This document shows positions 2,840 through 14,079 of a stretch of 64,000 bases of DNA, one piece after another. Below the pieces are notes generated by a model. It had not been told where the DNA came from. It saw nothing but the letters and a program-made list of their open reading frames with translations, and did no database searches. The position numbers and the translations under genes are program-made. Location of the stretch: contig DASUHB010000066.1 in assembly GCA_036273715.1 (NCBI GenBank), positions 1 to 64,000 of the forward strand, read 5' to 3'. Every line of letters starts with the position of its first letter. Position 1 is the stretch's first letter. This stretch comes from Gemmatimonadaceae bacterium. GTDB lineage: Bacteria; Gemmatimonadota; Gemmatimonadetes; Gemmatimonadales; Gemmatimonadaceae.

Positions 2840-2899
2840 ATGAATCTGTATGGGTTTGCGGAGGGCGACCCGGTGAACTTCGCGGACCCGTTTGGCCTG
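2671..2899 (+). repeat. Rhs module repeat, copy 3
   Basis: Carries GTGCACCGCTGGGCCTCGAC, tandem GCCTAACC words at 2730 and 2738, an in-frame TAA, then the FTQEDP, IGL and GG..LYGFA segments of the Rhs core end. It differs from copies 1 and 2 by many substitutions, so the three copies are not a recent tandem duplication. Confidence 0.75.
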
Positions 2900-3382
2900 A
2901 AAGTCTGCTTCCAAGGTTCGGGAGCTGAGATTTCTGATCTCAAGAAGACAACCGAGTCCGCAACGAACACCACGTTCTCGCTGGACAAGAAGAACTGCGT
3001 TGATCCGGCGAGTGTGCGGTCAGGAGGAGACAAGCGCTTCGACGCATTGCGGGCTGGCTTCAGTGACCTGGTTGGTTCGGACGCTACTTTCAGCGTTGCG
3101 TTCGGTGCGGAGGCGGAGTCGCCACAGTACAGTCCCTATAAGATCAGCATCTTTAGAGATGCCGATGCCTTGGCATACTCCACCGGTGCATGGGGTAAGT
3201 GCGATGGTGGTCGAGCGGCGTTTAGCTTCCCTCAAGTGATGGCTCACGAGCTCAATCACCATTTCCCTGTCGCTCGTGGAGGGAAAATGACGAGCGGCAC
3301 GCGTGGAGAGAACGACGCCGTAAGGAAGGGGGATAACATCTACAACGCCGCGAGTGGAAGGCCATTAAGATGCCGTTATTAG
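2840..3382 (+). CDS. Orphan Rhs C-terminal tip, module 3, zinc-metallopeptidase-like
   Basis: 180 residues. Residues 1-20 are the Rhs core end (MNLYGFAEGD..NFADPFGL). The variable part contains MAHELNHHFP with the zincin signature H136-E137-L-N-H140, and a downstream GENDAVRKGDN..N segment whose E157 is a plausible third zinc ligand. It ends RPLRCRY, a tail often seen in metallopeptidase tips of polymorphic toxins. The predicted activity is proteolysis of a host-cell protein. Target and delivery route cannot be read from the sequence. The 3' end overlaps the next gene by 13 bases, again the toxin/immunity arrangement. The length and intact HExxH suggest an undamaged domain, unlike module 1. 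Confidence 0.65.
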   Translation: MNLYGFAEGDPVNFADPFGLKVCFQGSGAEISDLKKTTESATNTTFSLDKKNCVDPASVRSGGDKRFDALRAGFSDLVGSDATFSVAFGAEAESPQYSPYKISIFRDADALAYSTGAWGKCDGGRAAFSFPQVMAHELNHHFPVARGGKMTSGTRGENDAVRKGDNIYNAASGRPLRCRY

Positions 3383-11751: not shown

Positions 11752-12560
11752 CGCCGCCGTGCATCCTGTGCTACCACAAGGTCGACCGGCGCGTTGAGTT
11801 CGGCGTCACGCGCCTGTCGCCCCGGCGGTTCGCTCGGCAAATGGAGCGGCTCGCGCGCACGGGATACACCACCCTCACGCTCGCCGAGCTCCGTGCGTGC
11901 CTAACGGGCGTCCGGCGGCCCGCGCGCACCGAGATCGCGATCACGTTCGACGACGGCTATCGGGCACTGCGCGACCACGCGTTCCCGGTGCTCGCCGCGC
12001 ACGGCTTCACCGCGATCTGTTTCGTCGTCACGGACTATGCGGGGAAGCTCAACCGCTGGGACGTGGCGTACGGCGGCCGCCGATTCGCGCACCTCGCGTG
12101 GCGCGACATGCGGCGCTGGCAATCACGCGGCATCGAGTTCGGGTCGCATACTGCGACGCACCCGCGTCTCACGTGGCTCGACGAACGCGAGGTGACGCGC
12201 GAGCTCGCGCAATCCCGCGGCGACCTGCGCGCGGCACTCGATGTTGACCCGTACGCTCTGAGCTGGCCGTTCGGCGCGCACGCCCAACGCGAGCGTGCGA
12301 TTGCCCAACGCGAGGGCTACGAGCTCGCGTTCACGATCGGCGGCGCACGGAGCTGCACCGGCGACCTGTTCGCGGTCCCCCGACACCCGGTCTATATGTG
12401 GTCGCCGCCGATGCCCGGCGTCGGGCATCTTCGGCGCGCCGACGCACTCGCGGGCACCCTCGCCAATCGGTGCGCGATTGGTACGTCGATTATTCGGCGC
12501 CGCAGCGGAGCAGACGCGGTGCGCAGTCGCCTGCGGGAGGTAGCACCAGCTGTAGAGTAG
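11748..12560 (+). CDS. Polysaccharide deacetylase (NodB-type, CE4)
   Basis: 270 residues from a GTG that overlaps the ald stop (GTGA). CE4 motifs: CYHKV near the N-terminus, ITFDDGYRALRDHAFP with the metal/catalytic Asp pair, GSHTATHPRL with the two metal His, and SWPFGAH in place of the R.PY motif. No signal peptide is seen, so the protein is probably cytoplasmic or membrane-associated and acts on a glycan precursor or surface polysaccharide. The last 60 residues are Arg-rich. The exact substrate cannot be told. It converges on the flavoprotein gene. Confidence 0.87.
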   Translation: MTPPCILCYHKVDRRVEFGVTRLSPRRFARQMERLARTGYTTLTLAELRACLTGVRRPARTEIAITFDDGYRALRDHAFPVLAAHGFTAICFVVTDYAGKLNRWDVAYGGRRFAHLAWRDMRRWQSRGIEFGSHTATHPRLTWLDEREVTRELAQSRGDLRAALDVDPYALSWPFGAHAQRERAIAQREGYELAFTIGGARSCTGDLFAVPRHPVYMWSPPMPGVGHLRRADALAGTLANRCAIGTSIIRRRSGADAVRSRLREVAPAVE

Positions 12561-12625: not shown

Positions 12626-13807
12626 CTAAACGAAGTACTTGGCCACGACGGGAAACAGCGCCGGGTGCCTCACGAGGGCGCGCGCGAAAATCTTGCCTAG
12701 GGTGCGGCGCCTTTCCGGAATTCGATTCACCGACCGTGCCAGCTTGTCGAAGAACACGTCGTCGAACCGCGCCAGAGCTTCCTTGATCCGATAGAAGCGC
12801 ACGTGGTCGTCGCCTAACAGACGCATCCAGTCGGCGTGGTACTTTGCGAGGCGCGCAGCGCTCGTGTCGCCCGCGTGCAGCGCCGCGTTGGCAACGTGCG
12901 CCGCCAGTCGGCCGGCCTTCATCGCGTTTACGATCCCGCCGCCCGACAACGGATTGATCATGTGCGCCGCGTCGCCGCAGAGAATCATCGCGTCGGTCAC
13001 CGTGCGCGCGAGCGTCGGCGATACGATCACCCCACCCACCGTGTAGCCCGTGCGCACACCCGTGGGGAAATAGGACTCGAGATATCGATCGAGATACGCG
13101 CGCGCGCTCCGCCCGCGCTCGCCGCGCAGGGCGACGATCCCGAGTCCGACGTTCGCCACGCCGACGCCCTTCGGAAACACCCACGCGTAGCCGCCGGGTG
13201 CGATATCGTGGCCAAAGTGCAGGTAGATCGCGTCCGGATCGAACGCGATCCCGCCCACCACGTACTGCGCGCAGCTCTCCATGTCGCGGGCCGGCACGCG
13301 CGTGTCGAGACCCGCCCAGCGCCCGACCATACTCTCCACGCCGTCGGCCGCGATCACGAGGTGCGCGTCTACGCTGCCGGAGCCCGAGGGACCCCGAGTC
13401 GCCACGCGCCAACCACCCTCGGTGCGGGTGACACCCGTCGCCTCGGTCGCGATCACGACCTCGGCGCCGAGCCGGCCTGCTTGCTCGGCGATCGCCGGCT
13501 CCAGGCGCGACCGGTCGAGCACGTAGCCCACGTCGCCCTCGGCCACGCGCACCTGGGTGCCGTCCGGCGCGACGAATACCACCCGCGTGATGCGTCGCGA
13601 CACCCACGGCGCGTCCCGTGGGTCCATGAACTCGGCGATGCCGCCGTGGCCAACGCCCTCGCCGCAGCGGATCGGCGCGCCGACCGCGCGGTCGCGCTCG
13701 AGCACCATCACGTCGAGGTCCGGCGCAGCGGCAGCAAGGTCGCGGGCGGCAATCAAGCCAGCCGGTCCTGCGCCCACGACGAGTACGTCGCAGCGACGAG
13801 AGCTCAC
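12626..13807 (-). CDS. Geranylgeranyl reductase family FAD flavoprotein
   Basis: 393 residues from a GTG overlapping the ferredoxin stop by four bases. FAD-binding CDVLVVGAGPAGLIAARDLA, the family CGEGVG segment with its cysteine, GGYAWVFPKGVGVANVGLG (substrate-pocket motif of GGRs) and ILCGDAAHMINPLSGGGI. Members hydrogenate isoprenoid chains of chlorophyll, archaeal lipids or menaquinone. In a non-phototrophic bacterium a menaquinone side-chain reductase is the most likely role. Coupling to a dedicated ferredoxin suggests that as electron donor. An unrelated FAD hydroxylase is less likely given the WVFPKG motif. The stop TAG sits in a GTTTAGGC word. Confidence 0.85.
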   Translation of the reverse strand: MSSRRCDVLVVGAGPAGLIAARDLAAAAPDLDVMVLERDRAVGAPIRCGEGVGHGGIAEFMDPRDAPWVSRRITRVVFVAPDGTQVRVAEGDVGYVLDRSRLEPAIAEQAGRLGAEVVIATEATGVTRTEGGWRVATRGPSGSGSVDAHLVIAADGVESMVGRWAGLDTRVPARDMESCAQYVVGGIAFDPDAIYLHFGHDIAPGGYAWVFPKGVGVANVGLGIVALRGERGRSARAYLDRYLESYFPTGVRTGYTVGGVIVSPTLARTVTDAMILCGDAAHMINPLSGGGIVNAMKAGRLAAHVANAALHAGDTSAARLAKYHADWMRLLGDDHVRFYRIKEALARFDDVFFDKLARSVNRIPERRRTLGKIFARALVRHPALFPVVAKYFV

Positions 13808-14079
13808 GCGGGTGCGCCGTTCATAGTCGGCACCGCTTCTCGCGAGATCATCGCGAGCGCGCCCACCGGACAGGGCGCGATGCACTTGCGACACCCAGTG
13901 CAGATTGAATCGTCAATATGGAGCCCGTCCCGACGGAGCATGATCGCGGCGGGCGGGCAGAGCGGCAAACAGAGTCCGCACGCATCGCAGACCGACGGAT
14001 CGACGATCGCGACTTCGGCGGCGCGGTGGGGAGCGGGAGACGACGACGATGGGGCACGAGTTGGAGGGATGCCGCTCAT
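13804..14079 (-). CDS. 2[4Fe-4S] ferredoxin
   Basis: 91 residues. Two classical clusters: CDACGLCLPLCP (about 33-44) and CTGCRKCIAPCP (about 62-73), preceded by a 25-residue Ser/Pro-rich extension. A small cytoplasmic electron carrier. It is translationally coupled to the geranylgeranyl-reductase-like gene, so it most likely feeds electrons to that enzyme. It is divergent from mreB, with about 145 bases between them. Confidence 0.93.
   Translation of the reverse strand: MSGIPPTRAPSSSSPAPHRAAEVAIVDPSVCDACGLCLPLCPPAAIMLRRDGLHIDDSICTGCRKCIAPCPVGALAMISREAVPTMNGAPA

Follow-up and report, generated by a model that had tools for sequence, protein, structure and literature searches.

Among the closest described systems is that of Methanosarcina acetivorans, whose geranylgeranyl reductase (GGR) saturated lipid in Escherichia coli only when supplied with the ferredoxin encoded upstream of it (Isobe et al. 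2014; PMC4244643, PMC10821996), whereas the same study found that the GGR of Sulfolobus acidocaldarius could do without a ferredoxin. GGR loci of several archaeal orders, some accompanied by ferredoxins and some not, are discussed in PMC10821996. The general statement made in a first-pass annotation of the DNA described here, that known archaeal relatives use ferredoxin, thus stands for the Methanosarcina enzyme and fails for that of Sulfolobus. On the bacterial side, orthologs of GGGP synthase (GGGPS) and DGGGP synthase (DGGGPS) are reported from all 12 FCB phyla surveyed in PMC6431249, in a table that includes Gemmatimonadetes. Metagenome-assembled genomes (MAGs) of Cloacimonetes carry GGRs, and the Cloacimonetes GGGP and DGGGP synthases made lipid in E. 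coli optimised for GGPP and G1P (PMC7852524).

The window analysed here, a stretch of 64,000 nucleotides from a Gemmatimonadaceae genome, carries a ferredoxin and a GGR-like flavoprotein on its minus strand, as the first-pass annotation had it. The first gene of this pair (P0002, positions 13804-14079) encodes a 91 aa ferredoxin with two 4Fe-4S motifs, matched by Fer4-type models, and the second (P0001, 12626-13807) a 393 aa flavoprotein of the GGR family, matched by TIGR02032 and GGR_cat and read from a GTG start. The arrangement, a ferredoxin gene upstream of a GGR gene in one locus, is that of M. acetivorans, where the ferredoxin requirement is experimental and not, as here, predicted. The four-base overlap announced earlier is the sequence GTGA (13804-13807, minus strand), in which the GGR start meets the ferredoxin stop; a longer GGR reading frame of 422 aa is a read-through back into the ferredoxin gene, and the GTG within the overlap is the start adopted. 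Such an overlap suggests that the two genes are translationally coupled. Since an mreB-like gene (named by eye), running from 14224 on, is divergent to the pair and a polysaccharide deacetylase gene (PF01522), ending at 12560, is convergent with it, ferredoxin and GGR probably form a two-gene transcript. A promoter scan around the pair returned no promoter-like site, and two terminator-like sites were found (1.1 expected), the minus-strand one sitting inside the GGR gene. Elsewhere in the window, three ORFs (106-429, 1557-2129 and 2840-3382) have a nearly identical stretch near their start, MN(A/L)YGFA(N/E)GDPV(N/D)F(S/A)DPFGL, followed by differing tails, and by eye resemble RHS/YD-repeat cassettes.

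The ferredoxin has eight cysteines, arranged in two CX2CX2CX3CP motifs: Cys31, 34, 37 and 41 form the first CX2CX2CX3C motif (13957-13989, minus strand) and Cys60, 63, 66 and 70 the second (13870-13902, minus strand). Both Pfam Fer4 and Fer4_7 score above their cut-offs, as befits a two-cluster (2[4Fe-4S]) protein, the clusters themselves being predicted from the protein sequence.

The flavoprotein belongs to the GGR family by TIGR02032 (195.1 bits against a cut-off of 158.8) and by Pfam GGR_cat, PF22578 (81.2 against 27). It falls short of the equivalog models for DGGPL reductases, NF041160 (201 against 780 bits), NF041080 (128.7 against 580) and NF041385 (96.8 against 700), and is therefore classed as a protein working like a DGGPL reductase and not as a member of that group. 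A bacteriochlorophyll role of the BchP type was rejected, since TIGR02023 gives 118.5 bits and has its cut-off at 343.3. The closest solved structure is the Thermoplasma acidophilum DGGPL reductase 3oz2, the top match both by sequence (E 1.5e-57) and by fold (32% identity over 402 columns), followed by the Sulfolobus GGR; unlike the Thermoplasma enzyme, the window GGR lies outside the archaeal clade and far under the Thermoplasmatales equivalog cut-off. An AlphaFold model of moderate quality (mean pLDDT 78.1), for which the first seven matches of a fold search are all GGRs, goes no further than confirming the GGR fold. A second GGR-like flavoprotein is encoded elsewhere in the same genome (G000:C63:8145-9077; L010, L158:2-1093); it scores 143.7 bits, under the TIGR02032 cut-off of 158.8, and adjoins an ORF that looks radical-SAM-like by eye.

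Within the window GGR, an alignment of 20 sequences places the conserved residues in four stretches, all on the minus strand. The FAD-binding GAGPAG loop (residues 12-17, 13757-13774) has G12, G14, P15 and G17 invariant. The CGEGVG motif, seen in the first-pass annotation and located at residues 48-53 (13649-13666), has C48 and E50 to G53 invariant, with G or A at residue 49; Cys48 aligns to the cysteine of KPCGD in the Sulfolobus GGR (SaGGR; alignment to 4opt), and an active-site cysteine is described for GGRs in PMC6309074 and PMC10821996. The WVFPKG motif, likewise seen earlier, corresponds to residues 209-214 (13166-13183) and is the core of a YXWXFPX7-8GXG pattern, with Y207, W209, F211 and K213 invariant and P212 nearly so. 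A GGG motif as in archaeal GGRs occupies residues 289-291 (12935-12943), G289 and G291 being invariant and G290 nearly so. According to PMC6309074, YXWXFPX7-8GXG and GGG are motifs of archaeal GGRs, from which the Streptomyces GGR diverges. The window protein conforms to the archaeal pattern, with YAWVFP (Y207, W209, F211, P212) followed eight residues later by GLG.

The association of the two genes is close to obligate in the window's order, which we sampled by an even draw of 201 genomes, a part of the order that includes the window's own genome. A GGR is present at E<=1e-40 in 39 of them; in a phylum-wide draw of 298 genomes, all 31 genomes with a GGR fall within the same order. The ferredoxin search (E<=1e-12) matched 38 of the 201 genomes, every one of them among the 39 GGR carriers, and none of the 162 GGR-negative genomes of the draw. 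The one carrier without a match (G160) has its GGR 4 bases from a contig end. The ferredoxin lies immediately upstream of, or overlaps, the GGR in 29 of 30 loci of the order that were inspected, the window included, the remaining one being cut by a contig edge. At 27 of these 29 loci, again with the window, there is an overlap of 1, 4 or 8 bases between the ferredoxin stop and a GGR start codon; at the other two the range scanned contains no GGR start.

To look beyond the order, named relatives of the GGR were collected with two peptide patterns and the best 80 of 518 were kept, so that all counts from this set cover close relatives. The closest of these 80 is 92% identical to the window GGR and bears the title Gemmatimonadaceae, as do those that rank after it. 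Three of the 80 loci are cut off upstream (L070, L109, L114), leaving 77, among which a two-cluster ferredoxin motif precedes the GGR in 73, three of them fusions; the window's clade contributes all of its 41 loci, other bacteria 20 of 24 and archaea all 12. Not all of these loci are independent: L051-L065 overlap part of L021-L050 and L068-L109, and the archaeal GGRs include two identical rows. No adjacent ferredoxin was found at L110, L128, L133 and L138 (4 of the 77 usable loci from the best 80 of 518), and in the archaeal L145 and L146, from the same set, the upstream protein is a polyferredoxin, about 230 bases from the GGR. Also among the best 80, loci of Methanocellales, Methanosarcinales and Methanoperedens have the same layout as the window, with GGRs 36-42% identical to its own over the best segment. 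In many relatives of the order the GGR is succeeded, on its own strand, by an enoyl-ACP-reductase-like gene, at L055:11319-12221 (PF13561 in L055) and at 18 other loci, some of them overlapping; the window has no such gene after its GGR.

In three MAGs, ferredoxin and GGR are joined in a single reading frame: a Latescibacterota protein in which Pfam recognises both domains (L111:7704-9167), and two Anaerolineae proteins whose GGR part passes TIGR02032 (L134:7695-9005 and L144:575-1879). None of these genomes has a full GGGPS match (weak for L111, none for L134 and L144), which makes the substrate of the fusions less clear than that of the pair. The first-pass annotation had suggested that the ferredoxin is a dedicated electron donor, and the near-obligate linkage, the natural fusions and the Methanosarcina acetivorans precedent all speak for it. 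That the ferredoxin is the dedicated donor of this GGR is a well-supported prediction.

What this enzyme would reduce may be approached from the other lipid genes of the genome. A GGGP synthase is encoded on contig C17 (PF01884, 98.9 bits against 23.9); it passes TIGR01768 (130.8 against 113.25), misses the equivalog TIGR01769 (122 against 161.55), and has a GGGPS, 4jej, as its closest solved protein. It carries the motif YLDAGSGA (L157:5789-6517), the two best-aligned solved relatives, 4jej and 5nf1, having YLEAGSGA; YLDAGSGA or YVDAGSGA occurs in 13 of 18 scanned Gemmatimonadota GGGPS loci, two of which overlap others; L149 has E in place of D, and four gave no match to the motif. Contig C73 encodes a DGGGPS-like UbiA protein. 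Among its three best NCBIfam models are two for geranylgeranylglycerol-phosphate transferases, both scoring below cut-off (125 against 296 and 88.1 against 353 bits). Of the other two UbiA proteins of the genome, one is a heme o synthase (above cut-off) and one, matched by TIGR01475, resembles MqnP; two polyprenyl-synthase family matches are present as well. The GGR pair, the GGGPS gene and the DGGGPS-like gene lie on three separate contigs (C66, C17 and C73).

Two steps of the pathway were not found in this genome. For G1P dehydrogenase (G1PDH; EgsA/AraM), the sole PF13685 match (37.1 bits) is a 3-dehydroquinate synthase, scoring 355.4 with the AroB model (cut-off 305) and 44.3 with the G1PDH model (cut-off 413); PF13685 is an unspecific probe for this enzyme, with matches in 182 of the 201 genomes and in 13 of 14 control genomes. 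For CarS (CDP-archaeol synthase), there is no PF01864 match in the genome. G1PDH and CarS are also reported missing from four Cloacimonetes MAGs (PMC7852524), and GGGPS, GGR and DGGGPS or a DGGGPS-like protein are present in both; in Cloacimonetes, however, GGGPS and DGGGPS are co-localised.

Across the 201 genomes, the GGR tracks GGGPS and the DGGGPS-like protein. Strong GGGPS matches were defined by E<1e-15 (33 genomes), which dropped 27 weak partial ones from the 60 obtained at E<=0.001; seven of these 27 exceed Pfam's cut-off, all of them GGR-negative. Strong matches occur in 31 of the 39 GGR-positive genomes against 2 of the 162 GGR-negative ones (Fisher test, 1e-26, ignoring shared ancestry), the two latter genomes being 80% and 71% complete; by Pfam's cut-off, which includes short partial matches, the GGR-negative count rises from 2 to 9 of 162. 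The DGGGPS-like UbiA protein is similarly distributed (31/39 against 4/162; Fisher test, 1e-24, again ignoring shared ancestry), with all 35 genomes kept in this count and the weak G032 and G052 omitted only from the list of DGGGPS genera. At genus level, strong GGGPS matches are found in 13 of 15 GGR genera and in none of the 54 others, and DGGGPS in 15 of 15 and in 1 of 54 (a weak match), counts that likewise make no correction for shared ancestry.

The set is not always complete: GGR, GGGPS and the DGGGPS-like protein occur together in 26 of the 39 GGR genomes, five have GGGPS without DGGGPS, five DGGGPS without GGGPS, and three (G003, G012, G160; one of them 95% complete) neither, which leaves eight of the 39 without a GGGPS match. 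Ten of the 13 genomes missing at least one synthase are less than 90% complete and three (G002, G003, G125) are not. Outside the window's clade, the best 80 of 518 relatives include 24 other bacterial GGR genomes, of which 18 gave a full match to GGGPS, 1 a weak one and 5 none. The pair has a UbiA gene as neighbour at 10 of these 24 loci, before it in L113, L115, L121, L122, L124, L127, L130 and L136 and behind it in L133 and L138, and at 9 of the 24 a CDP-alcohol phosphatidyltransferase follows it (domain checks on L122 and L133).

As for the origin of the GGR, a tree of 51 rows, drawing on 48 of the 80 named loci and having 4opt, L136, 3oz2 and L119 as long rows, unites the window with 13 Gemmatimonadota rows in one clade (100/100), apart from the archaeal rows; these form one group with Thermoplasma (91/94). 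The tree does not resolve how the bacterial groups branch at depth. L112, although titled Gemmatimonadetes, is placed away from the window's clade. The position of this clade lends no support to a recent transfer from archaea, and an ancient archaeal transfer or common descent is possible. Contamination of the bin appears unlikely, as the pair has an mreB-like gene (by eye) close by, both in the window and at 53 other loci retrieved, among genes that we took by eye for housekeeping genes.

In our assessment it is likely that Gemmatimonadota have an ether-lipid pathway of archaeal type in which the pair carries out the ferredoxin-driven hydrogenation, a reading drawn from sequence comparison. 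Reduced ferredoxin would hand electrons singly to the FAD of the GGR; once reduced, this cofactor, next to the conserved Cys48, would in turn reduce double bonds of two geranylgeranyl chains. The substrate, DGGGP or a later ether phospholipid, would lie in the YXWXFP cavity, and the reaction would yield archaeol-type lipids, saturated in part or completely, alongside the normal fatty-acid lipids.

MenJ, an enzyme of actinobacteria, saturates part of the menaquinone side chain, and the first-pass annotation had considered menaquinone as a possible substrate, in which case the pair would act in a MenJ-like manner with ferredoxin as donor. The genome may indeed make menaquinone, its MqnP-like UbiA protein scoring above the TIGR01475 cut-off but below those for MqnP, and menaquinone is among the substrates reported for GGR-family enzymes (PMC6309074). 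The window GGR shares a flavoprotein superfamily with MenJ, but its match to the MenJ model NF045655 is weak (52.8 bits, the cut-off being 700), the motifs from which the Streptomyces GGR diverges (PMC6309074) are intact in it, and no quinone gene was recognised by eye among the window ORFs. As the GGR is moreover restricted to 39 of the 201 genomes and co-occurs with genes of archaea-like ether-lipid synthesis, such lipids are more likely than menaquinone to be what the pair saturates; menaquinone as the earlier suggestion had it is not borne out, partial saturation of its side chain seems improbable, and MenJ-type reduction was rejected as the main role, with menaquinone still conceivable as an additional substrate.

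A different prenyl substrate (GGPP, geranylgeraniol, a polyprenyl carrier or a one-chain lipid derived from GGGP) would suit the 13 of 39 GGR genomes with an incomplete synthase set and the fusion genomes that have no full GGGPS match, and GGRs are promiscuous in vitro (PMC6309074). The DGGGPS-like gene of the window's genome, moreover, adjoins a UppP-like ORF (by eye; L160:8845-10536). Yet both synthases accompany the GGR in the 26 other genomes, low completeness marks ten of the 13, and UbiA and CDP-alcohol phosphatidyltransferase genes often stand beside the GGR in the other bacteria among the best 80 relatives, all of which makes such a substrate unlikely. For FCB bacteria without G1PDH the possibility has been raised that GGGPS and DGGGPS work in reverse, in catabolism (PMC6431249), and that dehydrogenase was not found in the window's genome; the gene set would then degrade or remodel archaeal lipids from the surroundings, with the flavoprotein as a dehydrogenase. 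A near-obligate ferredoxin would suit reduction better than oxidation, however, and the Cloacimonetes synthases produce lipid in E. coli (PMC7852524), so that breakdown seems very improbable. The ether-lipid hydrogenation step is thus the reading retained. Its wider form, in which a patchy set of Gemmatimonadota makes both saturated archaeol-type and fatty-acid lipids, that is, a natural mixed membrane, with a ferredoxin that serves this GGR alone in a partnership shared with archaea and fused in some bacteria, is one on which we find ourselves evenly divided.

GGGPS and DGGGPS in Gemmatimonadota and GGR in Cloacimonetes are already published, and the fresh element is the dedicated, sometimes fused, ferredoxin. 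The ferredoxin-GGR unit is absent from the main texts of PMC7852524, where the word ferredoxin occurs once, in a reference title, and of PMC6431249, where it never occurs; among the titles listed in searches of the open literature, none concerns such a unit in Gemmatimonadota.

Whether any living bacterium has a mixed archaeal and bacterial membrane is the question behind the 'lipid divide'. The pair described here is a candidate for the saturation step of such lipids in Gemmatimonadota, with its likely electron donor named, and the case of Methanosarcina acetivorans illustrates that in E. coli a GGR can remain inactive unless its own ferredoxin is supplied. The natural ferredoxin-GGR fusions offer proteins for biochemical testing, and the combination of ferredoxin, GGR, GGGPS and DGGGPS provides a genomic marker by which Gemmatimonadota may be chosen for culture and lipid analysis.
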